Shown here piece after piece: positions 15,701-46,083 of a DNA stretch of 46,083 bases. Positions within the stretch are counted from its first letter, which is position 1. Each line of letters opens with the position of its first letter. The stretch is from an uncultured Bacteroidales bacterium (lineage in GTDB: Bacteria; Bacteroidota; Bacteroidia; Bacteroidales; Bacteroidaceae), in assembly GCA_902779845.1 (NCBI GenBank), contig CACZCZ010000019.1, positions 1 to 46,083 of the forward strand, read 5' to 3'. Position numbers and translations under genes: made by a program. Below the pieces are notes generated by a model. That model was not told the DNA's origin. It saw only the letters and a list, made by a program, of their open reading frames with translations, and made no database searches.

Positions 15701-15798
15701 TTCAGGGCACTGTCATCTACGACCTTACAGGCCGTCGTGTGGAGCATGCAACACGCGGGCTCTACATCATCAATGGTAAGAAGGTGGTAGTGAAGTGA
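12715..15798 (+). CDS. Secreted M60-family (enhancin/mucinase-like) zinc metallopeptidase
   Basis: 1027 residues. Signal peptide MRKIVLFLMTLLAWTGSSIVHAQ. Two ricin/beta-trefoil-like lectin regions are suggested at about residues 25-140 and 160-310 (YNQIWILLKNGSGYTLRS; SQYWTLIKDGDKWKFEN). A coiled segment follows at about 318-365. The gluzincin motif HEIGH is at H670-H674, with E671 catalytic and E687 the likely third zinc ligand, preceded by GGGNLWGPS. This is the HExGHx(8-28)E pattern of M60/PF13402, whose studied members cleave O-glycosylated mucins. The C-terminus YDLTGRRVEHATRGLYIINGKKVVVK-like matches the shared tag. Own promoter; the DUF6057-like gene follows closely and may be co-transcribed. 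Confidence 0.93.
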   Translation: MRKIVLFLMTLLAWTGSSIVHAQDITTGVVRVKSNRTSYYLSSSGVGNVTTTANNNESNYNQIWILLKNGSGYTLRSANTGEYLQATMTTVSSGKATLYIRKSPNATASKALINISAKSDCTGDFLNTNTSHNLFKYSMDEGCDWIVEASTKYTEDEVRQRLASQTGFVGELSEGKYYRVISYYGRALIDTEAVGGDMSTQPIDANDISQYWTLIKDGDKWKFENVLTQRLLLKQTTTSAPFHTTTKENATKFNLSVSSVVTQLPGDGWDYTWTINFPDDSRGLHDSESQGHNVVLWSTNAAASVWQFQECEVSQQAIDDARAKLSDLDDAIAKYNELVKQKAALQKELDSLFTDKACTTLNDTIATLTDEQLAANVHYAALTEEMQAMVLKVKNNTWQQYSDGDYTADYERFFRVADYKVYSNYITMASGSYFTMSNNFGRLSGPTGIVAEKGDIIYIYVDESPSSRTSLMVEAVSTDGVAGNHPTGSQTQLKKGLNLLQYTEQKMLYILYQIREDVTQSYYMNLSQYPDMKIHIEGGQLNGYWDATRDMTNQDWKLLQKQLLKASPFLNLKTKHLVFQMDANLVKAAEPNEMEGLMRIWDKIVENEDRYMGVEKFEGKYNNIWNAFSGASSYMHATTYGTWYTESTISTIMNYKTMSTGGGNLWGPSHEIGHNHQGSINVIGTTESSNNLFSNINTFESGILNSRRYYPHQNFSYMLDGTPWLERNIWMTTGMFFQLYLYFHVQHHDDNFYPNLFIQMRKKPINKWSGPGNGGPTSYGKDDYLHLAKMICDVAQADLSEFFEAYGMFIPVDMLHVGDYSNYDVTTTQADIDAAKKYMQKYEKKLGNIMFIDDRVIQKAADPDNIFGCVPAADGKKRANDEYPYLMSSATASYVGGDYESFTQDATPVTDDWYRVSGTTITFQGTKNYAGHKFYDADGKLIWATNKRSDTLPAAIRKIGLDNVTIMTANYDMTDTPCTNSKPDAITTIAADGKGVQGTVIYDLTGRRVEHATRGLYIINGKKVVVK

Positions 15799-15975
15799 AG
15801 GAGTGAAAAGTGAAGGAGTGAAAAGTGAAGAATTAGTGATACCTATGAGCCCAAAAGATAATAAGAAGCATGGTAATCTCAGTGAAAAGGATAAATCTCA
15901 TTCTTCACTTTTCACTCCATCATTCTTCACTTCTCATTTTTCACTTTTCACTTTTCACTTTTCATTCTTCATTAT
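15799..15975. repeat. Inverted pair of GTGAAAAGTGAA-type arrays bracketing a start codon
   Basis: Left arm 15799-15838 has plus-strand units GTGAAAAGTGAAG; right arm 15896-15975 has the complementary CTTCACTTTTCAC units. The ATG at 15845 lies between them. The right arm is translated as the Phe/Ser/Leu-rich run before the first membrane helix of the downstream protein. The mRNA could form a long imperfect hairpin over the start region. Confidence 0.75.
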
Positions 15976-21806: not shown

Positions 21807-22062
21807 CTCGATTACAACAGACACATAAAGTCAGACACCGTACTTCTTGACGCCATTGAGCGCTATCTTTCATCCAAAACTCTGTACTTTATTGCTTGTT
21901 TTATCATGACGATTCAATTGCATCATCACGATTATTCAATTGCATCATCATGATGATTCAATCAACAAACCCTTATTTTCCGGGTAATTAAATGTGGACA
22001 TTTGGCTGATTCACTACATTCCATGAAGTATGGGACCATGACGATGACACTTCAACATAACA
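21807..22062. other. Gene-poor interval
   Basis: No gene was recognised between the nagB terminator and the toxin-antitoxin module. The only structure seen is a short direct repeat at about 21909-21965 (ATTCAATTGCATCATCA twice, then a related ATGATTCAAT). Composition is more AT-rich than the surroundings. Confidence 0.5.
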
Positions 22063-22715: not shown

Positions 22716-23474
22716 TTAGTCGGCCAGCTTCGCCTTGATGAACTCGCGGTTCAGGCGGGCGATGTTGGCGATGGTCTCGTTCTTCGGGCACACAGCCTCG
22801 CAAGCGCGGGTGTTGGTGCAGTTGCCGAAGCCGAGCTCGTCCATCTTAGCCACCATGGCCTTGGCGCGCTTAGCGGCCTCGGGACGGCCCTGGGGCAGCA
22901 GGGCGAGCTGGGAGACCTTGGAGCTCACGAAGAGCATGGCGGAGCCGTTCTTACAAGCTGCTACGCAGGCACCGCAGCCGATGCAAGATGCGCAGTCCAT
23001 GGCCTCGTCGGCATCCTGCTTGGGGATGAGGATGGCGTTGGCGTCCTGTGCCTGACCTGTGCGGATGGTGGTGTAGCCGCCGGCCTGGATGATCTTGTCG
23101 AAGGCGGAGCGATCTACCATGCAGTCCTTGATGACGGGGAAGCCAGCGGAGCGCCAGGGTTCCACGGTGATGGTGTCGCCATCGTTGAACTTACGCATGT
23201 AGAGCTGGCAGGTGGTGGCGCCACGCTCGGTCTTGCCGTGGGGCGTGCCGTTGATGTAGAGCGAGCACATGCCGCAGATGCCCTCGCGGCAGTCGTGGTC
23301 GAAGACGAAAGGCTCCTTGCCGGCCTCGATGAGTTCCTCGTTCATGATGTCGAGGGCCTCGAGGAAGGAGGTGTCGTCGGGAATATTCTTCAACTGGTGT
23401 GTGTCGAAGTGGCCCTTCTCCTTCGGGCCGTTCTGTTTCCAGAACTTGATTGTAACAGAGATGTTTTTAGCCAT
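22716..23474 (-). CDS. frdB: Fumarate reductase/succinate dehydrogenase iron-sulfur subunit
   Basis: 252 residues from ATG 23474; an upstream in-frame ATG at 23489 falls in a GC-rich repeat and is less likely. Ligands for [2Fe-2S] are visible in CREGICGMC (C62, C67, C70), for [4Fe-4S] in [11 protein letters not shown] and for [3Fe-4S] in [13 protein letters not shown]. The subunit wires electrons from the cytochrome b/quinone site to the FAD subunit. It lies third in frdCAB. The gap to frdA is filled by a palindromic repeat pair. Confidence 0.96.
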
Positions 23475-23481
23475 AATATGA

Positions 23482-23634
23482 AGACCCACCCCCCAGCCCC
23501 TCCCTTGTAGGGAGGGGAGTAGAATGTATCTGACTCATTAGGGGGTCATTAGGGTAATTCTTAAATGTTAATACTAAAACCTATTTTTGAAAGGTGACCA
23601 CTCCCTCCCTACAAGGGAGGGTGAGGGGAGGGTC
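23482..23634. repeat. GC-rich palindromic repeat pair between frdA and frdB
   Basis: Arm a (23482-23520) contains CCCCTCCC-TTGTA-GGGAGGGG flanked by an AGACCCACCCCCC side. Arm b (23598-23634) is an imperfect reverse complement with CCCTCCCT-ACAAG-GGAGGG. Arm b begins directly at the frdA stop codon. Arm a ends (GGTGGGTCT in mRNA sense) 7 nt before the frdB ATG. Confidence 0.9.
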
Positions 23635-25626
23635 CTAATTCTTGTAGTTACGTGTCTGAACCTTGATTGCTTCGTACTCCAGGGGCTCCTTGATGAGTTC
23701 GGGATCCTTGTCGGCACCCTGATACTCCCAGCAGCCGACGTAGAAGAAGTTCTCGTCGTCGCGCTTGGCTTCGCCTTCCTCCGTCTGGTATTCCTCGCGG
23801 AAGTGACCGCCGCAGGATTCGTTGCGGCTGAGGGCGTCGTGAGCCACGAGCTCGCCCATGGTGAAGAAGTCACGGAGGTGGATAGCCTTGTCGAGCTCCA
23901 CGTTGAGACCTTCCTTCGAGCCAGGCACGAAGAGGTTCGTGTCGAACTCCTTCTGCAGTTCTTTCATCTTCTGGATGCCGGTCTTCAGGCCCTCGGCGGT
24001 GCGACCCATGCCGACATACTCCCACATGATGTGGCCGAGCTCCTTGTGGATGGAATCCACGGAGCGCTTACCCTTGATGTTGAGCAGGCGCGTGAGTTCG
24101 GCATCGACAGCTTTCTCGGCGGCTGCGAACTCGGGCAGGTCGGTGGAGATGCGCGGCCAGATAGCCTGGTCGGCGAGGTAGTTCTGGATGGTGTAGGGCA
24201 GCACGAAGTAACCGTCGGCGAGACCCTGCATGAGGGCAGAAGCACCGAGGCGGTTAGCGCCGTGGTCGGAGAAGTTGCACTCGCCGATGGCGAAGAGGCC
24301 GGGGATGGAGGTCTGCAGCTCGTAGTCAACCCACACGCCGCCCATCGTGTAGTGGATGGCGGGGTAGATCATCATGGGCTTGTAGTACTTCACACCGTTG
24401 ATCTCGTTGGCGAGGTCGCCGGGATAGACGTCGGTGATCTCCTCGTACATGTCGAAGAGGTTGCCATAACGCTGCTTCATGGCATCGAGGCCGAGGCGGT
24501 TGATGGACTCTGAGAAGTCGAGGAACACAGCCAGACCGGTGTTGTTCACGCCGAAGCCCTTGTCGCAACGCTCCTTGGCAGCACGGCTGGCGACGTCGCG
24601 CGGCACGAGGTTACCGAAGGCGGGATAGCGGCGCTCCAGATAGTAATCGCGGTCCTCCTCGGGAATCTCCCAGCCCTGCAGCGTGCCTTCCTGCAGCTTC
24701 TTGGCATCTTCGAGTTTCTTGGGCACCCAGATGCGGCCGTCGTTACGCAAGGACTCGGACATCAGCGTCAGCTTGGACTGCTTGTCGCCATGCACGGGGA
24801 TGCAGGTGGGGTGAATCTGTACGTAGGAGGGGTTAGCCATGTAAGCGCCCTTGCGGTAGCACTGAACGGCAGCCGTGCAGTTGCAACCCATAGCGTTGGT
24901 GGAGAGGAAGTAAGCGTTGCCGTAGCCGCCGGTGGCGATGACGACAGCGTTGGCGCTGAAGCGCTCCAGCTTACCTGTGACGAGGTTCTTGGCGATGATA
25001 CCGCGGGCACGGCCATCGACGATGACCACATCTTCCATCTCGTAACGCGTGAAGAGCTTCACCTTGCCAGCCTGCACCTGTGCGGAGAGGGAGCTGTAGG
25101 CGCCGAGCAGCAGCTGCTGACCGGTCTGACCCTTGGCGTAGAAGGTACGGCTCACCTGTGCACCGCCGAAGGAGCGGTTGGCGAGCATGCCGCCATATTC
25201 GCGAGCGAAGGGAACACCCTGTGCCACGCACTGGTCGATAATATTGTTCGACACCTCAGCCAGACGATAGACGTTGGCCTCGCGAGCGCGGTAGTCACCA
25301 CCCTTCACGGTGTCGTAGAACAGACGATAGACGCTGTCGCCGTCGTTCTGGTAGTTTTTGGCTGCATTGATACCGCCCTGAGCGGCGATAGAGTGCGCGC
25401 GACGGGGGCTGTCCTGGATGCAGAAGTTAAGGACGTTGAAGCCCATCTCACCGAGGGAGGCGGCAGCGCTAGCACCGGCCAGACCCGTACCCACCACGAT
25501 GACGTCGAGCTTGAGTTTGTTCTTCGGGTTCACCAGGCGCTGATGTGCCTTGTAGTTGGTCCATTTCTCAGCAACGGGCCCCTCGGGAATCTTGGAATCT
25601 ATTTTCTTTACTTGTTCAGTTGCCAT
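23635..25626 (-). CDS. frdA: Fumarate reductase/succinate dehydrogenase flavoprotein subunit
   Basis: 663 residues. FAD-binding [17 protein letters not shown] at 46-62 and the covalent-FAD histidine H78 in [15 protein letters not shown]. Substrate-site motifs [36 protein letters not shown] and [17 protein letters not shown] are present. The length and lack of a second anchor gene fit the B-type enzymes of Bacteroidetes (with a five-helix diheme cytochrome b). In anaerobes it mainly reduces fumarate to succinate. ATG 25626 is 30 bp after the frdC stop. Confidence 0.97.
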
Positions 25627-26457: not shown

Positions 26458-28188
26458 TTATCGCTGTGGGTCGTCGTATTGAATCTGCAATTCTTCGAGC
26501 CGACGATGCAGTTGTTTCTGCAGTTTCTCCACTTCAGGCTGGCCATAGAGATTGTGCATCTCATGCGGGTCGTTCTTCAGGTCGAAGAGTTCCCATGTGT
26601 TGACATCGTGGCCATAGAAATGGATGAGCTTGTAGCGGTCGGTGCGGATGCCGTAGTGGCGGCGCACGTTGTGCTCGGCAGGGTATTCGTAGTAGTGGTA
26701 GTAGATGGCATCGCGCCAGTTCTTGATGGCGGCCTTGTCCTTCTTCGTGGCAGCTTTGCCTTTCAGCAAGGGCAGCAGCGACACACCTTGGATGTCATCG
26801 GGAATAGGTACTCCAGCGAGGTCGAGGAAGGTGGGGGCATAATCGATATTTTGCACCATTTCATCGATGTCACCACGGCGCTCATAGCCTTTCGGCAGAC
26901 GCATCACGAGCGGTGTGGAGAGACTCTCCTCGTACATGAAGCGCTTGTCGAACCAGCCATGCTCACCCATGTAGAAACCTTGGTCGGAGGTATAGACCAC
27001 GAGCGTGTTGTCCAGCAGTCCCTTTTCCTCAAGGTAGTCGAGCATGCGCCCCACTTCCTGATCCAGCGAGTGTACCACCTTAGCGTAGTCACGCATATAG
27101 CGCTGATACTTCCACTCCAGGAGTTCTGCATCGCGACTGCCCTCGACACTGCTCTGCGCCTGACGGGGCAGGAAGTTGTAGTCCTTGCCCCACCTCTCGT
27201 AGAAGTCGCGTGAGAGGGGTACGTAGAACGCATCATACTGCTTGCGCTCGGCGGGCGAGAGGCGCCCGATCATGCCCTGGTAGGAGCGTGACAGGCGGGT
27301 CTGAGGTGTCTCCTTATCGCTCACGAACATCTTGGTATCATAGACGATGTCCATGTCCTTGCCAATCTCCATCTCTGTCTTGCCGGCGGCTTCGCGGGTG
27401 GCGTAGTCGTCGCGGAATTCAGGTGGCAGGGCAAAGGTCTTGTCCTCATACAGGCGCAGGTCCTCCAGTGCAGGGAGCCAGGCACGGTGGCAGGCTTTGT
27501 GGTGGATGAAGAGGGCGAAGGGGCGAAGACCCTCTCCCCGCTCCCCCGTGAGGGGGAGAGCCTCGCTATCGCTCGAAAGCTGCGCGCCAGCCTCCTCCCC
27601 TCCTTTACGGGAGGGGTTGGGTCTTCTATTCTCCATCCACTCAATGGCCTTGTCGGTGATGATGCGGGTGACGTAGCCGCTGTCGGTAGCGCGGGTGCCG
27701 TCCATGTGGATGAACGTGGGGTTGTAGTAGTCGCCCTGTGCCGGCAGTATCTCCCAGTGGTCAAAGCCTGTGGGTGTACTCACGAGGTGCCATTTGCCGA
27801 TGAGGCAGGTCTCGTAGCCGGCCGCCTGAAGCAGTTTCGGCATCGTCTGCTGGGAACCGTCGAAGATGCCGTGCTCGTTGTTCGTGAACCCGTTCTTATG
27901 CGAGTGCTTACCCGTCAGCATACATGCTCGGGAAGGGCCGCTCAGGGAGTTGGCCACATAGCTGTGTGTGAAGCGCACGCCATCCCTCGCGATGCGATCC
28001 AGGTTGGGCGTCTCCACATAACGGGTGTCGTAGCACGACATCATCTGCGCCGTGTGGTCATCCGTCATGATATAGACGATGTTGGGAGACTCTCCCCCCG
28101 CCCTCCCTATCAGGGAGGGAGCGGTCACCTGTGCGAATAGGGGGACAGCGGGAATGGAAAAGATTATTAAACCTTTGACTCTATTCAT
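26458..28188 (-). CDS. Exported serine-type sulfatase with two repeat-encoded insertions
   Basis: 576 residues. Short signal peptide MNRVKGLIIFSIPAVPLFAQ. Sulfatase core: NIVYIMTDDH with metal aspartates D43/D44; the SGPSRACMLTGKHSHKNG active site in which S83 would become formylglycine, so it needs an anSME-type activator; then GKWHL, HHKACHR and the YTSDQGFYMGEHGWFDK metal site. Residues 23-34 (APSLIGRAGGES) and about 189-221 (RPNPSRKGGEE...ERGEGLR) are encoded by GC-rich palindromic repeats and look inserted relative to the family. Substrate not predictable; host or dietary sulfated glycans are plausible. Lies 78 bp after glmM. Confidence 0.93.
   Translation of the reverse strand: MNRVKGLIIFSIPAVPLFAQVTAPSLIGRAGGESPNIVYIMTDDHTAQMMSCYDTRYVETPNLDRIARDGVRFTHSYVANSLSGPSRACMLTGKHSHKNGFTNNEHGIFDGSQQTMPKLLQAAGYETCLIGKWHLVSTPTGFDHWEILPAQGDYYNPTFIHMDGTRATDSGYVTRIITDKAIEWMENRRPNPSRKGGEEAGAQLSSDSEALPLTGERGEGLRPFALFIHHKACHRAWLPALEDLRLYEDKTFALPPEFRDDYATREAAGKTEMEIGKDMDIVYDTKMFVSDKETPQTRLSRSYQGMIGRLSPAERKQYDAFYVPLSRDFYERWGKDYNFLPRQAQSSVEGSRDAELLEWKYQRYMRDYAKVVHSLDQEVGRMLDYLEEKGLLDNTLVVYTSDQGFYMGEHGWFDKRFMYEESLSTPLVMRLPKGYERRGDIDEMVQNIDYAPTFLDLAGVPIPDDIQGVSLLPLLKGKAATKKDKAAIKNWRDAIYYHYYEYPAEHNVRRHYGIRTDRYKLIHFYGHDVNTWELFDLKNDPHEMHNLYGQPEVEKLQKQLHRRLEELQIQYDDPQR
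27527..27624. repeat. GC-rich palindromic repeat pair inside the sulfatase gene
   Basis: Arm a (27527-27560, AGACCCTCTCCCC...GTGAGGGGGAGAG) and arm b (27592-27624, CTCCTCCCCTCC...GGGTTGGGTCT) are inverted relative to each other and separated by 31 bp. The whole block is open in the sulfatase frame and falls between WMENR and PFALFIHHKA. Confidence 0.85.
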
Positions 28189-28266
28189 GAATAGATGATG
28201 ACAATAGGACTCAATCAGTCAAAAGTAACTGCTCCCTCCCTGATAGGGAGGGCGGGGGGAGAGTCT
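28087..28266. repeat. Perfect 36-bp inverted palindromic repeat pair at the glmM/sulfatase junction
   Basis: Copies at 28087-28122 and 28231-28266 are exact reverse complements of each other over 36 bp, each with an internal CCCTCCCT-GATA-GGGAGGG type hairpin. The right copy overlaps the glmM stop codon by one base. The left copy is translated as sulfatase residues 23-34. The sulfatase ATG (28188) lies between them. Confidence 0.93.
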
Positions 28267-29651
28267 TAAACCATCGAATACACGACATCCATGATTTTCT
28301 TGCCTATCTCGTCAGCAGCCTCCATGGTGGCAGCCTCGGAATAGACGCGGATGATGGGTTCGGTGTTCGACTTGCGCAGGTGTACCCACTTGTCGGGGAA
28401 GTCAATCTTCACGCCGTCGATGTCGTTGACCTCTTCGTTCTTGTAGAGCTCCTTCACCTTCTTGAGGATGGCATCCACATCGGTGTCGGGTGTGAGGTCG
28501 ATGCGGTTCTTGGCGATGCAGTAGGGAGGATAGGTGGCGCGCAGCTCGCTGGTCTTCATGCCCTTCTTGGCTAGATAGGTGAGGATGAGGGCGATGCCTA
28601 CGAGGGCGTCGCGGCCGTAGTGTGCGGCGGGATAGATGACGCCGCCGTTGCCTTCGCCGCCGATGACGGCGTTGGTGGCCTTCATCTTCGTGACCACATT
28701 CACTTCGCCCACGGCAGCAGCGTTGTACTCGCAGCCGTATTTGCGCGTCACGTCGCGCAGAGCACGTGTTGAAGAGAGGTTCGAGACGGTATTGCCGGGC
28801 GTATGCTGCAGGATGTAGTCGGCCACGGTGACCAGCGTGTATTCCTCGCCGTACATGGTGCCGTCCTCGCAGAACAATGCCAGACGATCGACATCGGGAT
28901 CAACGACGAAGGCAATGTCGTAGCCGCCCTTCTGCATCAGCGCCTTGATGTCGCCGAGGTTCTTCTCCAGCGGCTCGGGGTTGTGCTGGAAGTCGCCGGT
29001 GGGTTCGCCATAGAGGCAGGTGACGGTCTCCACGCCCAGCTGTTCCAGCAGCTTCGGCAGGATGACGCCGCCGACGGAGTTCACGGTGTCGAGAGCCACG
29101 CGGAACTTGCGGGCCTTGATGGCCTCTATGTCTACGAGTGCGAGGTCCTTCACGAGGTCGATATGCTTCTGGTCGTAGCTGTCATCCTCGCGGTACTTGC
29201 CCAGATGATCGACATCGGCATACTCGAAGTCCTCGGTCGCGGCGATGCGTAGCACCTCAGCACCCTCGGCTGCATTCAGGAACTCGCCGTCGCTGTTCAG
29301 CAGCTTCAGGGCATTCCACTGGCGGGGGTTGTGGGAAGCGGTGAGGATGATGCCGCCGCACGCCTTCTCCATCGTCACGGCCAGTTCGGTGGTGGGTGTT
29401 GTGGCAAGGCCGATGTTCACGACGTCGAAGCCCATGCCCATGAGTGTTCCGCAGACGACATTCTTCACCATCTCGCCGGAGATGCGGGCGTCGCGCCCTA
29501 CGACAATCTTGTTCGTGCCGATTTTATCGGTCTTGCGAATGAGTGTGGCGTAGGCCGAGACAAATTTTACGATGTCCAGAGGATTCAGCGTGTCACCTGC
29601 ACGGCCTCCGATGGTACCACGGATGCCGGAAATAGATTTGATCAGTGTCAT
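28266..29651 (-). CDS. glmM: Phosphoglucosamine mutase (or related alpha-D-phosphohexomutase)
   Basis: 461 residues. The phosphoserine loop is S106 in TASHNPRQWNALK. The Mg-binding loop is DPDVDRLA, the sugar-binding loop GGEGNGG, and the C-terminal phosphate-binding region is RKSNTEPIIRVY. GlmM forms glucosamine-1-phosphate for UDP-GlcNAc. The Bacteroidetes family is sometimes annotated as phosphomannomutase, so the sugar preference is not certain. It has its own promoter box and is followed by the sulfatase gene. Confidence 0.9.
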   Translation of the reverse strand: MTLIKSISGIRGTIGGRAGDTLNPLDIVKFVSAYATLIRKTDKIGTNKIVVGRDARISGEMVKNVVCGTLMGMGFDVVNIGLATTPTTELAVTMEKACGGIILTASHNPRQWNALKLLNSDGEFLNAAEGAEVLRIAATEDFEYADVDHLGKYREDDSYDQKHIDLVKDLALVDIEAIKARKFRVALDTVNSVGGVILPKLLEQLGVETVTCLYGEPTGDFQHNPEPLEKNLGDIKALMQKGGYDIAFVVDPDVDRLALFCEDGTMYGEEYTLVTVADYILQHTPGNTVSNLSSTRALRDVTRKYGCEYNAAAVGEVNVVTKMKATNAVIGGEGNGGVIYPAAHYGRDALVGIALILTYLAKKGMKTSELRATYPPYCIAKNRIDLTPDTDVDAILKKVKELYKNEEVNDIDGVKIDFPDKWVHLRKSNTEPIIRVYSEAATMEAADEIGKKIMDVVYSMV

Positions 29652-29880: not shown

Positions 29881-32823
29881 ATGAGAAGAACCCACTACTT
29901 TTTGATGTCTTTCCTGTGGCTTTTGATGCCAATGGCAGGACTCGCACAGACAACACAACCACCCACGACAGTTGAGGGGTGGGCTGACCGCTTGACTCGT
30001 TTTGGCAAGGGCATCCCCCAGGAGAAGGTCTTTGTGCAGATGGACAATACCTGTTATTTCCTTGGCGACACAATCTGGTTTGCGGCCTACACGCGTCGCA
30101 CGGACAGCGGTTTGCCTTCGAATGTCAGCCGCGTGCTCTATGTGGAACTGCTGAATCAGGACGGTTTCCTGCAGGAGCGCCAGCTTATCGAGATGAAAAA
30201 CGGCCGAGGCCATGGTAACTTCGTCCTCGCCGACAGCCTCTATGCCGGTTATTACGAGTTGCGGGCTTACACCCGCTGGCAGCTCAACTGGGGCATCACG
30301 GAGAAGGAGCACAGCTCGGGTGCCGAGGATTGGTTCTTCAACAAGACGATGGCCAAGGAGTTCTATCGCGACTACGACAAACTCTATTCCCGTGTCTTCC
30401 CCGTCTATGACAAGCCCCAGGAGGCGGGTGACTTCTACCACGATATGACAACACGTCCGCTGCGTCGCTATTTCAAGAGCGGAGCGCCTGAGCCACAACC
30501 CATGTTGATGCTCTTCCCTGAGGGCGGCCATCTCGTGGCCGGCGTGCCGTGTCGAGTGGCGTTTGAGGCAGCCACTGAGACGGGTGAAGCACTGGAGGGA
30601 ACGTTGGAAATATTGAAAAATGGAAATATTGAAACATTGAAAGACGCTCAAGGCCAGGACGCCCGCTCCGTCGCTGCTGTCAGCCGTGGTCGTGGTGTAT
30701 TCCTCTTCACGCCAGCAGCCGACCAGCGCTACACGGCACGCTTCACCAGTAAAGATGGGAAGACCGTGGAGGCCGAGATAAAGGATGCCGTAGCCGATGG
30801 CGTGGCGCTGAGCGTTGAGCGTAAGGGCGACGAATGGGAAATCCAAGTCCATGCTGTTGGCGAAGCCGCCACGAAACCTTTGGGCCTTACCATCATGCAT
30901 GAAGGTAGAACCCTATTATTCCAAGAACTAACTGGAGGTCCCTCAACTCAGATACATTATACTCCCCTCCTTGATAGGGAGGGGCAGGGGGGAGAGTCCG
31001 GCATCCATCAGGCCACCGTCTTCGATGCCGATGGCCGTGTGTGGGCCGACCGCCTCTTCTTTGTCAGCAAGCCAGACCAACAGTATTCTAACCTCACCAT
31101 CAGTGGCTTGAAGCCTGAATATGCTCCTTATGAACAAGTGAGTCTTCAGTTAACCGCTCCCTCCCTAAAGTCCCCCTCGCCCCTTGGAGGGGGGGTAGGG
31201 GTGAGAACGGCGGGGGTGAGTCTCGCCATCCGCGATGCTGCCGCTTCGGACTACACCTATGACACCAGCAATATCCTGACCGAGATGCTTTTATCCTCGG
31301 AGCTGAAAGGCTTCATCCCCGATCCTGCCTACTTCTTCGAGGCCGACGACCAGGAACATCGCACAGCATTAGACCTGCTGATGATGACACAGGGTTGGCG
31401 CCGCTTCGACTGGCGCACCATGGCCATGCCCGGTGCCTTCATGTTGACACAGCCCATGGAGTCCCAGACCCCCATCCTGCGTGGCGAGGTGCTCAACTTC
31501 GAGGAGAAACAATGGCAAGATGACATACAGCCCGTCGGCGATAAGGCAACCCCATTCTTCCTGGAAGACACGCTGGCCAAGATGCATCCCTCGCCCGACG
31601 ACGACCGTCCGGCCTACACCCTCCGCAAATCACTGATGACCGGAGGTGATGGCCTTTCCACTCAGGACGAGTATATTAATTATGGTCTTGGCGAGTTCAT
31701 TGAGACCATCATTGCTCAGACCTATGCTCATGAGTCCAACTATCCACCTGGCAGTTACCAGATGCGAGGCACAATCGCGACCTCCCGCTTCAATGCCAAA
31801 GAGAATGACTTGAAGCATGAAATGCGCGTCCATGCCGAGTTCGCGCAGCCAGGCAGCAAGGAGAGCATCTTGGGCGATATGGATACAAAAAACGGCCAAT
31901 TCACCATACCTTCGCCCTACTTCCAGGGTTACTGTATCTTCTTCCTCGCAGCTTCCGACACGACGAAATGGAAGAAGAACAAACCCCATACGTGGATTAG
32001 TATGGAGGAGACCGACGCCCCAGAGTTCTATGTACGCATCAACTGGCCTTATCCCCGCTTCACGAAGCCCTATCAATACTACCAGACGGCCTACCGCCCC
32101 GCTCCGCAGGACGTGCCCCAGACATCACTTTTCAATCCCAAGAGCTTTGAGACAGACATGCAGACGCTGGTGGTGCGCGCCCGCCGTGGTGGCATGCGCA
32201 AGCTGGACCTGACGAAACCGGCCTTCAGGGTTGATGCCTATGATGCCTTCAACGAAGCCTGCGATGCCGGTCTAATGGAGGGCCGCTACTATGGTCGTTA
32301 CCACTATCTGAACAGTGTGGCCCGCCTCTATGCCGGTGACATGCAGACCAACAACCTCTATCTGCTGGAGCCTCGTTTCGATGGCCATAATGTATCGTTG
32401 AACCGCTCGGCTCAGGTCATGAACCGCTACAACAAGCTCACGAACCTCAATGCCGTAGCTCTCTATACCGATTATAATCCGCGCACAGGCGGCGATCCGC
32501 GTGCCAAGGAGGACAATGTGGAGCGCTTGGCCATCAATCTCGAACAGTTGCCCAACGAAGGCAGTCGCGTAACCTATCGCGACCGCCGCTATGTCCTGCA
32601 GGGCTTCAATGTGGCCGATGACTTCTACCACCCCGACTATCAGCGCACGCCACCGGCCGATGGCGCCAAGGACTATCGCCGGACGCTCTACTGGAATCCC
32701 GATCTGCAGCTTGATGACAGCGGCGCTGCAACCGTCTCTTTCTTTACTGGCAGCAAGGCAACTTCCATCGTGGTCGATGCCAACGGCCAGGCCGCTGACG
32801 GCACCATCATCACCTCCCCATAA
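29881..32823 (+). CDS. Secreted MG2 (alpha-2-macroglobulin-like) domain protein with repeat-encoded insertions
   Basis: 980 residues with signal peptide MRRTHYFLMSFLWLLMPMAGLAQ. Near the N-terminus EKVFVQMDNTCYFLGDTIWFAAYTR is the MG2 signature of a large Bacteroidetes surface family that also carries a TonB-plug-like C-terminal region. The C-terminal RRTLYWNPDLQLDDSGAATVSFFTGSKATSIVVDANG block matches the closing beta domain of that family. Function unknown; probably outer-membrane associated. Three segments look inserted: LEILKNGNIETLKDA (residues 242-256, from an ATTGAAA-type array), LLDREGQGGESG (about 361-373) and APSLKSPSPLGGGVGV (about 426-442), the last two from GC-rich palindromes. 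Confidence 0.85.
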   Translation: MRRTHYFLMSFLWLLMPMAGLAQTTQPPTTVEGWADRLTRFGKGIPQEKVFVQMDNTCYFLGDTIWFAAYTRRTDSGLPSNVSRVLYVELLNQDGFLQERQLIEMKNGRGHGNFVLADSLYAGYYELRAYTRWQLNWGITEKEHSSGAEDWFFNKTMAKEFYRDYDKLYSRVFPVYDKPQEAGDFYHDMTTRPLRRYFKSGAPEPQPMLMLFPEGGHLVAGVPCRVAFEAATETGEALEGTLEILKNGNIETLKDAQGQDARSVAAVSRGRGVFLFTPAADQRYTARFTSKDGKTVEAEIKDAVADGVALSVERKGDEWEIQVHAVGEAATKPLGLTIMHEGRTLLFQELTGGPSTQIHYTPLLDREGQGGESGIHQATVFDADGRVWADRLFFVSKPDQQYSNLTISGLKPEYAPYEQVSLQLTAPSLKSPSPLGGGVGVRTAGVSLAIRDAAASDYTYDTSNILTEMLLSSELKGFIPDPAYFFEADDQEHRTALDLLMMTQGWRRFDWRTMAMPGAFMLTQPMESQTPILRGEVLNFEEKQWQDDIQPVGDKATPFFLEDTLAKMHPSPDDDRPAYTLRKSLMTGGDGLSTQDEYINYGLGEFIETIIAQTYAHESNYPPGSYQMRGTIATSRFNAKENDLKHEMRVHAEFAQPGSKESILGDMDTKNGQFTIPSPYFQGYCIFFLAASDTTKWKKNKPHTWISMEETDAPEFYVRINWPYPRFTKPYQYYQTAYRPAPQDVPQTSLFNPKSFETDMQTLVVRARRGGMRKLDLTKPAFRVDAYDAFNEACDAGLMEGRYYGRYHYLNSVARLYAGDMQTNNLYLLEPRFDGHNVSLNRSAQVMNRYNKLTNLNAVALYTDYNPRTGGDPRAKEDNVERLAINLEQLPNEGSRVTYRDRRYVLQGFNVADDFYHPDYQRTPPADGAKDYRRTLYWNPDLQLDDSGAATVSFFTGSKATSIVVDANGQAADGTIITSP
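30604..30648 (+). repeat. ATTGAAAxATGGAAA array inside the MG2-domain gene
   Basis: TTGGAAATATTGAAAAATGG...ACATTGAAAG run, in frame, same unit type as the intergenic array at 2971-3009. Confidence 0.65.
30962..31205 (+). repeat. Two GC-rich palindromic elements inside the MG2-domain gene
   Basis: Element a (30962-30998) contains CTCCCCTCC-TTGATA-GGGAGGGG and ends GGGGGGAGAGTC. Element b (31157-31205) contains CCCTCGCCCCTTGGAGGGGG and GTAGGGGTGAG. Unlike the other pairs they appear in roughly the same orientation and are 158 bp apart. Both are open in frame. Confidence 0.75.
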
Positions 32824-32999
32824 AGACCCACCCCCCAACCCCTCCCGTGATGGAGGGGAGAGCCTGCGGAAGGAAATAATACATTGACAAGAAAAAACAA
32901 AATAAATAATCCTTAACCACTTAACCCTTAACAATGACCCTATAAACCTCCAAGCGCTAGCAGCTCCCCTCCATTACGGGAGGGGGCGGGGGTGGGTCT
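32824..32999. repeat. GC-rich palindromic repeat pair between the MG2 and kinase-like genes
   Basis: Arm a (32824-32860, AGACCCACCCCCC...GATGGAGGGGAG) starts one base after the MG2-gene stop. Arm b (32964-32999, CTCCCCTCC...GGGTGGGTCT) is its inverted partner and ends 7 nt before the ATG at 33007. Confidence 0.9.
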
Positions 33000-33006
33000 C
33001 CTACTT

Positions 33007-39795: not shown

Positions 39796-42636
39796 TCAGA
39801 AAGTGATTGCAAGCTCTATCCTACCATTATTGTCATCTTGGGAAGAAGGAGAATAGGAGCTGGCATAAGTTTCATCCGTTTCCGTTGTTTTCGTGATTTC
39901 ACCGTCTCCGTTAAACTCCGTAATTTTCCGATAGTAGTGCCAATGTCCGGAAGCGCTTCCGGTAGCCCATCCTGCCGGAAGGTCTTTTGTGTTTAAACTG
40001 AATTTACATGTACCATCACTATACTCGCTATAATCTCCGAGGGGTATCTCTTTTTCCCATTCAAGGTATTCCGAATAATCGGAGGCGTCTATGCTCTCGG
40101 TTCTTTTTTCGAGGTAATTATAGTACCGATGGTATTCATCTTTCGTGTAGGGAGTTTCGGGATAGTCACGTGTCATGCGGCAAGAACCGCGGATAATCTT
40201 TCCAGGCTTCTCAGAGGCATCTACGACCAGTGAAAGCTGGTACACATAGTTGTTGTTAGAACTGTCCGTGTAGCTATGATTCCCCGTGAACGTAAGGATA
40301 TTACCTTTCCTTTCACATGTGACAGGGTAGGGATATGATGCAGATATAGTACTGCTGCTTGTGGATGAACTATGTGTGGCGTTTCCATTAACTATTATTG
40401 TTTCCTCGCTATTTTTCGTAGCCGGAATAGCCGCTGAAAGGCCAAAGGACTTGACATCCGTGCGCGTTGATAACTGTTCAATATAGATGGTGTCACTGGC
40501 TGCTATGCTACCTGCTCGAGCTGTAAGGATGACCCTCCCCTTGCGAGTGAAGAGAGACGGGTTCTTGGGCAACTCAATGTGCAAGTAGGCATCTTTGGCC
40601 TCTGCGTCGATGTCTGTCACGCTGACAGTTGCCCAGTCCCCCCTATACCAAATAGTGGAGTCGTCTGGGTCCTGTTTCTGGAAGGTTATATCAAAGGTTT
40701 GGCTGTTTGTTTTGAAATAAATGTCCTTCTTCTCAGCCTCTCCGCCAAACTTGTATTCCTTTTCCGTGAAATCAATGGTGGGGGTGACTGTGAAATACTT
40801 GGTTGGCCCACCGACAGAGAGCTCATAGCCCAGAGTGCTAAGACAAGGTGTTACATAGTACTGCCCACAGGGCAAACCTTCAAATTTTGTTTCAAACTTC
40901 TCTCTGGGCGTCGTAAAGAAGTGAGAAAAGGTATCGTATCGCTTTTCCAGCAGCTCCCGCTTATAGTTGTAGAGAGCGATGCCGACATACGATGGAACGA
41001 AAGTCTTGCGCTCTGGATAGAGGGTGACTTTCGTCACATCGTCCTGCTTGTCGAAAACCGCATCGATATCCTTGAAATCGGGCAGAAGGAACCATTCCAG
41101 CGTGCCGAACTGTTCCGAACGCTCGTAGAAGGTCGTCTTCTCGGGATCTTTCCATAGGAACTTCAGTTCCGCCTTTGCTTCTAAGTCAAGAGACAGGGCG
41201 TGGAGTTTAATATAGCTGTCCTTCAACGCACTATAGGCATCATCACTGGCCAATTTGGCGACAGAGAGCTTCAGGCTGCCTTCCAATTTCGGTCCCACAA
41301 AGAGTGACACGCCGATGCCGGACTTGAAGATATCCTCTATCCAGTCATTCGTTTCGATGTCACCAGTCATCTCAACGCCCATCTGTACGAAGCCGGCTAA
41401 CGACACCTCCAAGTCGCCGGTGTCAATTGGCGCTTCCTTGCCCTCGTCTTCTTCTGGAGTATTGTAATTGTGGGTATAGCTCATTATTGGCCAACGGTCG
41501 GTGTCGAAGATGATTGTTTGGTTCCAGAATAACTTGGCACCAGGCAGGGTAGCATTGAGGGCTATCTCACCGCCACCCCGAACATCTATATTGGGAATAG
41601 GATGTGTTTGGAAAATCGGAAGATTAACGGGGAACTTGATTGTTCGCAGCAGCTTCATCACCTCTATATCGGCGTCAAAGCTTTTGGAGGCTTTAATACC
41701 CACAGAAGGTGATATCCCGGCATAGCTGTTGATATCCGTTTTTACATACAATCGCTTCCAGCTGATGTAGTAATCGACTTTTATGCCCAACTTAAGACCT
41801 ATTTCTGCCGCCATGGTGATGGTGACATCCTCAGCAGGGCTGAATTCACGCTTGATGGTCCCCGTGAAATCTATCAGGGAGACATCTTCAGAGCCCTCCT
41901 CGGCACGCAGAACCTTGTTGCGTTCAGGATGCCAGCCGGCCAATCGGCGCTTCACTTGGCCGTCCTCATCGATAGTGACGCGTTCTGTAGTGACGAACTG
42001 AACAAAGACATCGCCCAGTTCACTTAGCGGGTTACAAATAACTTGCGTATAGTCATTGTTATAGTACTTAACTTCTGTCACTTTTCCGGCGAAACCTTTG
42101 CAGTAGAGCCATTGATGGCGGTAGTTTTTCGCCTCCTCATCCCAATAATATTCCGTATGGGTATCTATCAACACCTGCCCCACTTTAGGCATTAAGTTGG
42201 AGGGACAGCTATTCCGAACAAGGATTCTTCTGACCTTGTCAGATGGTTCAGCATTGATTTCCACGATATAGTCGAGCAACCCGTCATCATGGAAATCTCT
42301 TAAATTCGGATTCAGCTTGATCTCCGGCTGCTGGAAACCGATAGAGTCAATGACGGCCAGTGGGATCCGATAGAGCGAGTCCGCAGTTTCAATTTCCTGA
42401 ACGACATAATGGTCATGCTCAAAGCCATTGAAGTCGATCTTCGAATAGCCCATGCGGACGACCTCGTCATAGAAGAAACCATCGAAGTCGCCGTCGTTGC
42501 GGTAGATGTAGAACGCATCTTGTGCCAGAACTGGCGTAGTGAAGAATGAAAGAGTGAAAAGTGAAAAATAAAACAATCTCTTGGCTAAGGGTAGCCGAGA
42601 ACCGCGACATGCAAGGAAATTGTAAATATATCCCAT
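39796..42636 (-). CDS. Large secreted BACON-like protein, paralogue 2
   Basis: 946 residues. N-terminal export signal (LFYFSLFTLSFFTTPVLAQ) preceded by a basic MGYIYNFLACRGSRLPLAKR region. Residues about 40-90 (YRNDGDFDGFFYDEVVRMGYSKIDFNG) form a module also found in the 952-residue neighbour. A long beta-rich body follows with shared blocks IFDTDRWPIMSY, ETNDWIEDIFKSGIGVSLFVGPKLEGSL and HALSLDLEAKAEL. Residues about 655-735 are BACON-like (TFDITF...ARAGSIAASDTIYIEQLS). The C-terminus is not the GKKVVVK tag. Function unknown; probably a surface or periplasmic glycan-associated protein. Lies 45 bp after the T9SS-tagged small protein gene, likely one operon. Confidence 0.85.
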   Translation of the reverse strand: MGYIYNFLACRGSRLPLAKRLFYFSLFTLSFFTTPVLAQDAFYIYRNDGDFDGFFYDEVVRMGYSKIDFNGFEHDHYVVQEIETADSLYRIPLAVIDSIGFQQPEIKLNPNLRDFHDDGLLDYIVEINAEPSDKVRRILVRNSCPSNLMPKVGQVLIDTHTEYYWDEEAKNYRHQWLYCKGFAGKVTEVKYYNNDYTQVICNPLSELGDVFVQFVTTERVTIDEDGQVKRRLAGWHPERNKVLRAEEGSEDVSLIDFTGTIKREFSPAEDVTITMAAEIGLKLGIKVDYYISWKRLYVKTDINSYAGISPSVGIKASKSFDADIEVMKLLRTIKFPVNLPIFQTHPIPNIDVRGGGEIALNATLPGAKLFWNQTIIFDTDRWPIMSYTHNYNTPEEDEGKEAPIDTGDLEVSLAGFVQMGVEMTGDIETNDWIEDIFKSGIGVSLFVGPKLEGSLKLSVAKLASDDAYSALKDSYIKLHALSLDLEAKAELKFLWKDPEKTTFYERSEQFGTLEWFLLPDFKDIDAVFDKQDDVTKVTLYPERKTFVPSYVGIALYNYKRELLEKRYDTFSHFFTTPREKFETKFEGLPCGQYYVTPCLSTLGYELSVGGPTKYFTVTPTIDFTEKEYKFGGEAEKKDIYFKTNSQTFDITFQKQDPDDSTIWYRGDWATVSVTDIDAEAKDAYLHIELPKNPSLFTRKGRVILTARAGSIAASDTIYIEQLSTRTDVKSFGLSAAIPATKNSEETIIVNGNATHSSSTSSSTISASYPYPVTCERKGNILTFTGNHSYTDSSNNNYVYQLSLVVDASEKPGKIIRGSCRMTRDYPETPYTKDEYHRYYNYLEKRTESIDASDYSEYLEWEKEIPLGDYSEYSDGTCKFSLNTKDLPAGWATGSASGHWHYYRKITEFNGDGEITKTTETDETYASSYSPSSQDDNNGRIELAITF
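42524..42636 (-). repeat. 113-bp near-identical 5' segment shared by both paralogues
   Basis: Nucleotides 42524-42636 match 45971-46083 with a single mismatch that I can see, whereas the rest of the genes has diverged much more. The segment encodes the start codon and whole signal peptide and contains the GTGAAAAGTGAAAAAT-type array at 42539-42574. Confidence 0.88.
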
Positions 42637-43241: not shown

Positions 43242-46083
43242 TCGAGATGGCAGCGCTGTTGGCTGTACAACTCCTACTTTCATGGCTATTGCTCTTCTTG
43301 TCGTAATTATAATACGTGGATTCTGGGTAATCTGTATGTTTCCTATATGCTCTTGAACTGCCATGATCTTCATAGCTCCATTGGCCAGACACTTCTGAGG
43401 CTGTCAAGTTTCCTACGTAAGTTACACTTGGGGAGATTGGGTAAGAACCTGGCTTGCCATAGGGAACATCGCCAGCCCACGTGAAGGTTCTTACATCGTT
43501 AAGTGTTTGACTCTCTTCTTTCTCTTCTACATCATAAGGTTCATTCTGCCCCTGACGGGTATATTCATAGTGGTAACTATATTCACGGCTTAAGGTGTGA
43601 GTGTAATTAAGATTACCGCCCACTACTTTTCCCTTTCCGCTTGATGCATCAACGACAAGTTCTAATGCCCATATAGTATTTTCTTCACGACGGCTTCTAA
43701 GAGGTCCATGATCGTGGTCCACATCGCCATTATAGCTATTCGGATCGCTAACCGTGCCCGAGAGATAAATATAATTACCCTCACGTCGGCTCGTGACGGG
43801 GATTTGCATACTTATAGTATAATAAGTCTGGTCTTGGGAACCCGTAGAGGTCTCGCCATCTTCGTAGAGCTTTGACCAAGAGTAGGAGCCTGTACCAGTA
43901 ACGGTAACGCTGACCTTAGCCTCTTTAAATCCTTCTAACCCATATGCTTGCTGCACGCGCAGCGTGTCGCTTGTGGTGTAATTGCCTTCAGTAGCCGTAA
44001 CTATAACGTCGCATGATCGTGGGAAATGCGAGGCATTTTCGGTCATATCCAGGATCATGGAGCAATACTGATTTTTCTCATCATATTCGGTAAAGCTGGC
44101 CTTAAGCCAGTTGCCATCTTCGCTTACGATAGCTATCTTCAGATTGTCGGTGTTGGTGATGATGGGTATCTCCTGCTGTTGGGCGCTGCTGGTTACTTGA
44201 ATGCTGTCCATGCGCCCACTATCTCCAATCAGCAATTGAGGCGCGATGAAGAAGCTGGTCTGTGCACTCTTCACGGGCAGCTCCACGCCAGCCAGCAGCA
44301 CATAGGGATAGGTCTGATAGGTGCCACAGCGCAACTTAAGGTCTTTGAACACAGTCTTGTATTTTGCATCCTTGATGTCAAAGAGATAGGATTGTGTGCG
44401 AAGGTCATTGAGCACACGGTCACCTTTGTAATTATACACGGCCGTTCCTATGTACGTGGGCCACAGCAGATGGCGCGACGGGAAGACCTCCACTTCTAAG
44501 CGGCCGTAGTCGGTCTCGTAGTTAGCTGTCGTGGTTTTGAAATCAGGCAGCAGGAACAACTCGCTGGTGAGGAACTGTTTCGAGAGCTCGAAGAAGGTTG
44601 TCCTCTCACGGTCGCCCCAGAATGCTTGCAATTCTGCCCTTGCTTCCAAGTCCAGGGAGAGGCCGTGCAACTTGATGTAGTTATCCTTGAACAGCCCATA
44701 GGCGCCGTCCTTCTCGAATGCTGCTTTCGAGAATCCGAGCTTTCCCTCAAGCTTTGGACCTACGAACAAATCTACGCCGATGCTTGAGGAAAAGACATAC
44801 TCAAACCAATCATTCGTCTCAATGTTAGCACTCAATTTGAAACCAGCCTGTATGAAGCCAGACAGCGAGAGTTCTACATCACCGGGCTTATCGATGGCCT
44901 CTTGCTCTTTTTCCTGCTTTTCTTTTTCGTCGAGCTCGGTCAGGTAACTTACATAACTGGCTATTGGAAACTGGTCGGTGTCAAAGGTGAAGGTCTGTCG
45001 CCACTTGAATGACACTGGTGCCAGCGAGGCCGTCAGGGACAAATCGCCACCACCGCGCACCAATAAATCGGGCAGCGGACGTGTCTGGAACAGCGGACAG
45101 ACGGCAGGGAATTTGATGCTCTTCAAGCATTGAGGAACGCCATCAACGACAGCCTCGAAACTGCTGGACGTCTTGACGGTCAGCTTAGGAGTGACATCGA
45201 TGTTGGTGTCAAGGGAGGTCTTCACGAAGAGGCGCTTACGGCTGATATTGTAAGCCATTGACAGTATCACCTTGCAATCCAACCCAGCCTCCACACTGAG
45301 CGTTCCATCATAGGGTAACGGCAACTCGCGCTTGATGGCCCCGCTGTATTCAAAGAAGGGTTTCTTGGTGAAGCCCTCTTTGGCACGACGATAGGAGTCA
45401 TAGCCTGCCATTCGGCGTTTCGTATTACCTTCCTCGTCCATGGAGACCTGCTCTGTACTGATGAACTGATCAAAGATGTCCTCCAGGCTGGTCACCAACC
45501 CTAAATCAACAAGATACTCTTTCTCTTTTGTGTAAATAAAGGACACCTTCATGCAATAGCCCGCATATTCTTGCCTGCGATAAGGATCAATATCAAAGAT
45601 CTCCTCATCAAAGGACATCAGCACATCACCGCTTTTAGGAATCAGCTCCTGAGGAGTGTCACGCCTAAGATGGATGCGATAGGGACTGCTTATTTCCGTG
45701 ATATAGGGAAGCAGCGGACTGCCATCCATGAATTTTACCCGTGGGCTAAATCTAATCTCTGGCTGCTGGAAACCGATAGAGTCAATGGCTGCCAGTGGGA
45801 TGCGATAGAGCGAGTCCGCAGTTTCAATTTCCTGAACCACATATTGGTCATGCTGGAAGCCATTGAAGTCGATCTTCGAATAGCCCATGCGGATGACCTC
45901 GTCATAGAAGAAACCGTTGAAGTCACCGTCATTGCGATACACATAGAACGCCTTGCCGTCCTCTATCTGCGCCAGAACTGGCGAAGTGAAGAATGAAAGA
46001 GTGAAAAGTGAAAAATAAAACAATCTCTTGGCTAAGGGTAGCCGAGAACCGCGACATGCAAGGAAATTGTAAATATATCCCAT
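43225..46083 (-). CDS. Large secreted BACON-like protein, paralogue 1
   Basis: 952 residues; the ATG is the very last three bases of the window, so the gene is complete but its promoter is not visible. Signal peptide region is the same as in the 946-residue paralogue (LFYFSLFTLSFFTSPVLAQ). Shared blocks are YRNDGDFNGFFYDEVIRMGYSKIDFNGF, VRGGGDLSLTASL, ETNDWFEYVFSSSIGVDLFVGPKLEGKLGF and HGLSLDLEARAEL. A BACON-like domain lies at about residues 640-720. The C-terminal ~200 residues are rich in Tyr/Ser and differ from the paralogue in detail. Function unknown. Presumably a surface protein. Confidence 0.85.
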   Translation of the reverse strand: MGYIYNFLACRGSRLPLAKRLFYFSLFTLSFFTSPVLAQIEDGKAFYVYRNDGDFNGFFYDEVIRMGYSKIDFNGFQHDQYVVQEIETADSLYRIPLAAIDSIGFQQPEIRFSPRVKFMDGSPLLPYITEISSPYRIHLRRDTPQELIPKSGDVLMSFDEEIFDIDPYRRQEYAGYCMKVSFIYTKEKEYLVDLGLVTSLEDIFDQFISTEQVSMDEEGNTKRRMAGYDSYRRAKEGFTKKPFFEYSGAIKRELPLPYDGTLSVEAGLDCKVILSMAYNISRKRLFVKTSLDTNIDVTPKLTVKTSSSFEAVVDGVPQCLKSIKFPAVCPLFQTRPLPDLLVRGGGDLSLTASLAPVSFKWRQTFTFDTDQFPIASYVSYLTELDEKEKQEKEQEAIDKPGDVELSLSGFIQAGFKLSANIETNDWFEYVFSSSIGVDLFVGPKLEGKLGFSKAAFEKDGAYGLFKDNYIKLHGLSLDLEARAELQAFWGDRERTTFFELSKQFLTSELFLLPDFKTTTANYETDYGRLEVEVFPSRHLLWPTYIGTAVYNYKGDRVLNDLRTQSYLFDIKDAKYKTVFKDLKLRCGTYQTYPYVLLAGVELPVKSAQTSFFIAPQLLIGDSGRMDSIQVTSSAQQQEIPIITNTDNLKIAIVSEDGNWLKASFTEYDEKNQYCSMILDMTENASHFPRSCDVIVTATEGNYTTSDTLRVQQAYGLEGFKEAKVSVTVTGTGSYSWSKLYEDGETSTGSQDQTYYTISMQIPVTSRREGNYIYLSGTVSDPNSYNGDVDHDHGPLRSRREENTIWALELVVDASSGKGKVVGGNLNYTHTLSREYSYHYEYTRQGQNEPYDVEEKEESQTLNDVRTFTWAGDVPYGKPGSYPISPSVTYVGNLTASEVSGQWSYEDHGSSRAYRKHTDYPESTYYNYDKKSNSHESRSCTANSAAISIWLGY
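45971..46083 (-). repeat. 113-bp near-identical 5' segment, second copy
   Basis: Partner of 42524-42636, including the GTGAAAAGTGAAAAAT-type array at 45986-46021 that encodes the hydrophobic core of the signal peptide. Confidence 0.88.

Follow-up and report, generated by a model that had tools for sequence, protein, structure and literature searches.

The window analysed here, the whole stretch of 46,083 nucleotides (nt) of contig CACZCZ010000019.1 from an uncultured Bacteroidales bacterium of the family Bacteroidaceae (assembly GCA_902779845.1), contains two operon junctions that are occupied by inverted pairs of a short palindromic repeat, each copy of which we call an arm. One junction lies between a gene with an MG2-domain match below the Pfam cut-off and a kinase-like gene matching the Pfam family APH; the other lies between frdA and frdB in a minus-strand operon. 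The interior of each pair holds a very short open reading frame (mini-ORF). The features of the two junctions are the following:

32824..32860, minus strand: left arm of the MG2/kinase junction; its tail AGACCCACCCCCC abuts the stop codon of the MG2 gene, and the hairpin comes next.
32861..32963, plus strand: interior of this pair, with the foot GCCTGCGG, an A/T-rich leader, the mini-ORF and the foot GCGCTAGC.
32934..32945, plus strand: mini-ORF MTL* (ATG ACC CTA TAA), whose stop is at -64 from the kinase ATG.
32964..32999, plus strand: right arm, a hairpin and a G-rich tail ending GGGTGGGTCT.
33000..33006, plus strand: 7-nt spacer CCTACTT, preceding the kinase ATG at 33007.
23597..23635, plus strand: arm on the frdA side, which shares its first G with the end of the frdA TAG stop.
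23521..23596, minus strand: interior of the frdA/frdB pair, with the mini-ORF MTP* (ATG at 23549).
23482..23520, minus strand: arm on the frdB side, with 7 nt between the end of its tail and the frdB ATG at 23474.

The preliminary description of this stretch had the left arm begin one base after the MG2 stop. The two are indeed adjacent, but the gap between the TAA (32821-32823) and the arm is 0 nt, counting the A of AGACCC. The other distances given there agree with the coordinates: the right arm ends at 32999, 7 nt before the kinase ATG, and the same geometry is found at frdA/frdB, where the near arm stops 7 nt short of the frdB ATG and the far arm sits on the frdA stop (23637-23635), the G of which is common to stop and arm. 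At this second junction, MTP* and a second ORF (ATG at 23538) overlap by TAATG; the latter runs through the other arm and ends just inside frdB.

Each arm has a recurrent inner foot, a hairpin (about 8 bp) of the form CCCCTCC-loop-GGGAGGGG and, on the side opposite the foot, a G-rich tail (GGGGGTGGGTCT) that ends in GGGTCT (AGACCC on the other strand). The arms occur singly or as outward-facing inverted pairs, and the window contains several subtypes with tails ending GGTGGGTCT, GGAGAGTCT or GGAGGGTCC. The proposal that the G runs place a G-rich ribosome-contact site gained no support of its own; the runs form a stretch with G-quadruplex potential, and the corresponding motif is present in 162 of 173 tails, a count that is weak because the tails were selected for similarity. 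At two other loci (L143:1544-1807 and L149:767-1010) a common insert of about 110 nt (GTGCTTAGCGCC...) lies inside both arm palindromes, and is perhaps a nested second repeat.

The arms belong to a repeat family with many copies. The core GGGAGGGGN0-8GGGTGGGTCT has 62 exact matches in the genome of the window (G000; 2.92 Mb in 47 contigs, 86% complete), as compared with 0 for the reversed control. Matches to the core were found in 33 of 61 genomes of the same genus, with 0-86 copies each (control 0 in all), and in 50 of 301 genomes of the family, spread over 10 of its 30 genera. A scan of named genomes returned at least 113 stretches; among the matches listed, 78 of 80 are titled Bacteroidaceae, Prevotellaceae or Bacteroidales and two Sphingomonadales, and many come from rumen and omasum samples of goat, sheep or deer. 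Comparison of these sequences demonstrates both the repeat family and its patchy copy number. We read the arms as a family of short palindromic repeats in uncultured Bacteroidaceae and Prevotellaceae, many of them from the rumen, that is probably mobile at present or was so recently. The two contigs titled Sphingomonadales, from metagenome-assembled genomes (MAGs), contain a near-identical look-alike hairpin with a GGGGGTGGGTCT tail between called genes (L216:3160-3183 and L227:1332-1410). We found no description of the family in the literature searched, which included the portions considered of PMC8040213 and PMC5771137; preprints and most subscription papers lay outside this coverage.

The position of the arms relative to genes was determined for every distinct arm detected in the stretches fetched around hits in three species of the genus (G000, G003 and G015). 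It should be noted that gene starts and intragenic counts depend on our own simple codon-usage gene caller, that most genomes are MAGs, and that the detector requires a near-intact G-rich strand, so that decayed arms are missed and the conservation of this strand is overstated. Among the 211 arms, 90 are intragenic, 57 face a stop codon, 60 face a start codon and four have no neighbour. The stop-facing ends are located within -2 to +4 nt of the stop in 42 of 57 cases (20/26, 12/18 and 10/13 in the individual genomes) versus 1.9% of random intergenic slots, a baseline taken from 286 kb of the window's genome; the binomial probability is 1e-59 if the arms are treated as independent, an assumption that related copies do not satisfy. 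On the other side, 22 of the 60 ends that face a start are placed 4-12 nt ahead of it, versus 3.1% of random slots. Random placement relative to stops and starts, the outcome named beforehand as speaking against precise docking, is thus not what these numbers describe. The docked operons include FrdAB, GroES-GroEL, Rnf/Nqr and HlyD-AcrB.

In a replication set of 111 loci from other MAGs, from which the two Sphingomonadales loci (L216 and L227) and 21 arms already counted in the first set were excluded, 27 of 48 stop-facing ends and 8 of 42 start-facing ends were docked, and 122 of 212 arms were intragenic. Thirty-five of the 42 arms in G299, of genus g6, lie inside genes, and most of the pairs there are 115-117 bp long; in G241 the intragenic share is 15 of 26. 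The earlier view that precise docking reflects a defined target or strong selection is therefore upheld by the distance test in the three species and in the other MAGs, and fails in G299, where none of the four stop-facing ends is docked. Likewise, the picture of an extragenic element that fills a junction describes the docked junctions well but is too narrow for a family with 90 of 211 arms inside genes.

Paired intergenic arms are almost confined to co-directional junctions (80 of 83; two lie between two stops and one has no neighbour), an excess over the 80.6% co-directional share of random slots (P 3e-5). This bears on the possibility that the arms are a transcription device, that is, a terminator, a Rho modulator or a 3'-end stabiliser placed after stops. 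Single and paired arms alike put a hairpin directly after the stop, and the left arm gives a C-rich strand in the mRNA, as such a device might. However, nearly all of the paired intergenic arms lie in co-directional junctions that have a downstream gene, copies exist in frame inside genes, and no Rfam match at gathering thresholds was obtained anywhere in the window. We consider this explanation very unlikely.

Comparison of the docked junctions demonstrates a preferred polarity and a preferred position of the mini-ORF. Firstly, the feet are of the CCGCAGG type on the stop side and of the GCGCCAGC type on the start side. When distinct 5' arms are counted, junction pairs show this polarity in a ratio of 16:1 (49 arms, 32 of other type or unclassed), as opposed to 2:6 for the 16 intragenic arms, of which 8 are unclassed (P 0.001). 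Secondly, the docked ATG is preceded by ATT (ATTATG) in 10 of 19 cases versus 8 of 130 background starts. Thirdly, the interior of docked pairs is A/T-rich and usually contains a short ORF. In 39 docked pairs that were not selected for a mini-ORF (loci obtained with an ATGACCC search were left out), the 63 nt inspected upstream of the right stem contain an ATG in 33, and a mini-ORF stops at -58 to -72 from the gene ATG in 26, compared with 3.4 after shuffling of the interior. The encoded peptides differ (MTL, MTP, MTQYAL, MTLKALL, MKIINNL, MILTL, MTHIPQ), and the stop stays near -64. Five of the 39 pairs have an ORF that passes through the right arm and stops at -5 to +19 of the gene ATG, and four have an interior ATG in frame with the gene.

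A search with AATGACCCTAWAR gave matches in 23 of the 61 genus genomes; the 32 matches in the 30 loci obtained are accompanied by at least one arm, according to a relaxed test, in 24 cases and by none in eight. The sequence ATGACCCTA also persists where the arms of a pair have decayed (L437) and in a kinase leader without arms (L094). At one further locus (L158:1600-1900), leader, mini-ORF and hairpin are present in three tandem copies, 94 bp apart, before a DUF1015 gene.

In predicted RNA folds, the two arms pair into a panhandle with a stem probability above 0.5 in all 37 junction pairs of 100-200 bp, and a panhandle may form in vivo. Arms of the same locus are more alike than arms of different loci: equal or greater likeness arose in 0 of 5000 permutations in G000, in 4 in G003 and in 492 in G015, figures that are too strong in that some arms (L121, L134) were counted more than once. 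Common insertion, conversion or a pairing constraint could each account for this likeness.

Orthologous junctions in relatives are filled in some genomes and empty in others. Six of 30 frdB loci have a pair, of one type in G000, G016 and G043, a second in G060 and G011 and a third in G048. In 19 others, frdA and frdB are 1-8 nt apart; the gap is 23 or 70 nt in two, other sequence lies directly upstream in two, and one is unreadable. The MG2/kinase junction carries one type in G000 and G018 and another in G040, G003 and G042, several other genomes being free of arms there. Among 30 Rnf/Nqr loci, five (G000, G048, G043, G003 and G060) bear versions that differ or are decayed. No arm was detected in 22, of which 19 have gaps of 2-29 nt and three have longer ones, and the start was not recognisable in the other three. 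The groES/groEL junction is filled only in G000 among 30 loci; the arm-less gaps are 24-210 nt, and the pair is therefore placed at both edges of a longer leader in this case. Empty sites as well as docking are thus demonstrated by sequence comparison.

That different subtypes have come to occupy the same short junctions more than once would be expected from targeted insertion, in which docking reflects target choice because a mobilising enzyme recognises stop/start junctions or because incoming copies recombine there. Four arm-less Rnf/Nqr junctions resemble joined element ends (AGACTCT-TTCATT-ATG and similar; TAGACTCT-ATG in L436, TAAGACTCTTTCATT-ATG in L446 and L448, and AAGACA in L430), and these could be targets, excision scars or chance likenesses. 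However, the phase relative to the stop is not fixed (-2 to +4), no common flank was seen in the intragenic copies, and no target duplication was seen by eye when empty sites at frd, kinase and sulfatase genes were compared, the relatives being diverged. Targeted insertion is in our opinion unlikely.

Arms inside protein genes form the second large population. Other arm sequences of the window are the following:

28220..28266, plus strand: arm at the stop of a phosphoglucomutase-family gene (28266-29651, minus strand), of the subtype ending GGGGGGAGAGTCT.
28085..28133, minus strand: partner of the preceding arm, in frame just after the apparent signal peptide of a sulfatase (TAPSLIGRAGGES).
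27531..27624, minus strand: two hairpins within the sulfatase gene, in frame, at residues 190-221.
30948..30999, plus strand: single in-frame arm within the MG2 gene (YTPLLDREGQGGES); the same peptide is present in one of 10 orthologues (G040).
31150..31212, plus strand: degenerate in-frame arm sequence within the MG2 gene (LTAPSLKSPSPLGGGVGVRT), variable between species.

Residues 190-221 of the sulfatase stand opposite three residues of PDB entry 7P24, and the alignment breaks exactly there. This insert is absent in G043, G003 and G060, and in G041 its place is taken by a shorter one that resembles a hairpin. The N-terminal arm follows the presumed signal peptide; in G041, which has no arm there, the gap to the upstream gene is 1 nt. 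The MG2 protein has two arm places, with differing fill among the 10 orthologues. In both proteins checked, in-frame insertion of sequence absent from orthologues is demonstrated by such comparisons. The intragenic arms read as flexible linkers rich in Gly, Ser and Pro, such as APSLIGRAGGES. An invertible switch was also considered; many pairs enclose the start codon and N-terminus of a gene, which inversion would break.

The intragenic copies and the empty sites both bear on the possibility that the arms are selfish palindromic repeats that have no function at junctions. They would insert widely, selection would purge the copies that damage proteins, promoters or initiation regions, and docking would be the footprint of tolerance. 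A high proportion of the arms is intragenic (90/211, 122/212 and, in G299, 35/42), single arms dock as well, and the native gaps are short (1-8 nt in 19 of 30 frdA/frdB loci, 2-29 nt in 19 of 22 unfilled Rnf/Nqr loci). Moreover, the arms are absent from relatives and are therefore dispensable. On the other hand, the median co-directional gap is 91 nt, yet no more than 14 of the 57 ends facing a stop are over 4 nt away from it (20/48 in the replication set). Nor is a position 7 nt ahead of a start an obviously harmless one for a hairpin, and the polarity and the steady mini-ORF stop with differing peptides demand more than tolerance. We regard this explanation as a serious possibility, though less likely than not.

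The explanation that we favour, at about even odds and with the selfish one close behind, is that a mobile palindrome similar to known palindromic repeats, namely REPIN (doublets of repetitive extragenic palindromic sequences, REPs) and RPE (Rickettsia palindromic elements), is kept where translation tolerates it and has turned into a translation-relay cassette at operon junctions. Tolerance is its simplest part: palindromes compatible with coding are retained in the loops of proteins and at the edges of ORFs. The arms would persist where a translating ribosome copes with them: in frame within genes or, in co-directional operon junctions, with the tail docked against an ORF edge. A docked junction begins with the stop codon and the left arm, followed by a leader rich in A and T that contains a start-like site together with a minute ORF (MTL*, MTP*, MTLKALL*); the right arm and a gap of a few nt, in many cases 6-8, separate this leader from the start codon. 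Pairing of the arms into the panhandle would leave about 10 unpaired nt between stop and start, with the mini-ORF in the apical part. Ribosomes would use the leader start and translate the mini-ORF, and termination before the right arm, or read-through of it, would aid initiation downstream. Such a relay would preserve coupling across an operon that has a stable hairpin in the middle. The polarity, the common start context and the steady mini-ORF stop in core operons are poorly explained by tolerance, and it is for this reason that we favour a relay role for the junction form. The suggestion, already made in the preliminary description, that an mRNA structure sets downstream translation is possible, judging from the predicted folds and from the mini-ORF that is usual between docked arms.

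Several observations weigh against this explanation. Eight of the 39 docked pairs have no such mini-ORF or ORF by the criteria used. An inverted repeat folds regardless of function. The copies are related by descent, so that the counts are not independent and the mini-ORF may be inherited rather than selected. Docking is weaker outside the genus (ends at -2 to +4 in 3 of 6 stop-facing cases in G241, 1 of 2 in G148 and 1 of 1 in G155, in addition to the 0 of 4 in G299), and the start docking of the replication set, 8 of 42, is low. Stop-facing arms for which no partner was detected are docked as well (10 of 16 at -1 to +4), and stop docking therefore needs neither panhandle nor mini-ORF. Finally, in a library study summarised in the part of the review PMC12548453 considered here, structure just downstream of a stop lowered coupling.

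A more far-reaching version is that of a portable translation relay: a cassette that inserts between the stop and start of tightly linked genes, brings its own leader start and a mini-ORF at a set distance, and re-establishes or tunes coupling, while its sister copies serve as in-frame linkers. We put this forward only tentatively and consider it rather doubtful in this full form.

Bacteroidota rarely use Shine-Dalgarno pairing. The arms constitute a repeat family that respects ORF edges within a few nt in core operons, such as those for fumarate reductase, GroES-GroEL and Rnf/Nqr, together with a steadily placed mini-ORF, and the filled and empty junctions provide a natural set for asking how Bacteroidota translate the second gene of an operon. 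They also extend the in-frame entry of palindromes into protein genes to a further lineage.

Some other repeats of the window stand apart from the arms. Positions 42320-42636 and 45755-46083, about 3.4 kb apart, are near-identical (91-98%) and lie at the starts of two large minus-strand ORFs; runs of a AGTGAAAAGTGAA-like repeat plus inverted copies are present at 15777-15969 and 42528-42577; and a 22-nt unit (TTGCATCATCATGATGATTCAA-like) is found in three tandem copies at 21896-21961.

REP-type repeats are usually regarded as extragenic passengers. The arms resemble REPs, their REPIN doublets and bacterial interspersed mosaic elements (BIMEs) in being short palindromes with many copies, often arranged as inverted doublets that can form a long hairpin, and in being patchy between species. 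They differ in that they dock on ORF edges (42/57 at stops) or lie inside genes (90/211) rather than being scattered randomly over extragenic space, in that they are rarely found near a Y1 gene instead of flanking a cognate REP-associated tyrosine transposase (RAYT) gene, and in that their junction form contains a mini-ORF. In this genus the arms avoid untranslated spacers and are therefore distinct from REPs as usually described.

The possibility that the arms are nevertheless ordinary REP/BIME or REPIN repeats spread by a RAYT (Y1, HUH) enzyme was addressed with a PF01797 (Y1_Tnp) profile search of the window's genome, the 61 genus genomes and 27 chosen genomes. The earlier statement that no RAYT is seen in the window holds, as the genome has a single, weak match, which lies on a different contig and has no adjacent arm. 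This sole match (L001:1261-2565, G000:C7) is a protein of 434 aa whose central part contains tandem low-complexity repeats, and similar long versions exist in several relatives. The inverted hairpin doublets, the many copies and the arm ends in CT would fit RAYT spread, as published RAYTs cut at a CT beside the REP (PMC8266576, in the part considered), and a Y1 match is present in 7 of 12 genus genomes with at least 10 arms versus 7 of 28 with none. However, an arm was found in the fetched flanks (up to 1.5 kb) of just 2 of 54 Y1 loci, although a cognate gene may be absent from incomplete genomes; the arm-rich G148, G241 and G019 (85-88% complete MAGs) gave no Y1 match at E 0.01; none of 164 arms has GTAG or CGTC in the 10 nt next to the stem on its foot side (13 have CTAC); and the placement is not randomly extragenic. 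The 54 Y1 loci scanned and the PF01797 searches provided no convincing link to a RAYT as the carrier; a Y1 enzyme is a lead only, and spread of this kind appears quite unlikely.

The nearest published account, compared by description alone and from the part of PMC6006769 considered, concerns the Y1 subclasses 2.4 and 2.6 of Bacteroidetes, in which REP or atypical structures flank or lie inside the Y1 gene and are copied elsewhere in the genome. The phylum and the copies elsewhere are shared with the arms, whereas the arms are near only the two Y1 loci mentioned above. For the systems that follow, too, the comparison is with the portions considered of the cited papers. Palindromes in frame in unrelated protein genes have been described for RPE and intragenic REPs (PMC10969869; PMC3733652), and the arms do the same, but in another phylum, without CGTC beside the stem and with a large second population docked at operon stops and starts. 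REPs tagged with GTAG/CGTC lie near the 3' ends of flanking ORFs and often supply the TAG stop (PMC3733652), just as the first base of an arm completes some stops here; those REPs are found between convergent genes too, and their distance to the ORF downstream varies, whereas the paired intergenic arms are co-directional (80/83) and docked on the start side too. Lastly, translational coupling by RNA unfolding or reinitiation involves a close stop and start, structure at the downstream start and a leading short ORF (PMC12548453). The junction form has the same geometry, known here from sequence, and whereas coupling elsewhere is a property of individual operons, here it would be borne by a dispersed repeat.
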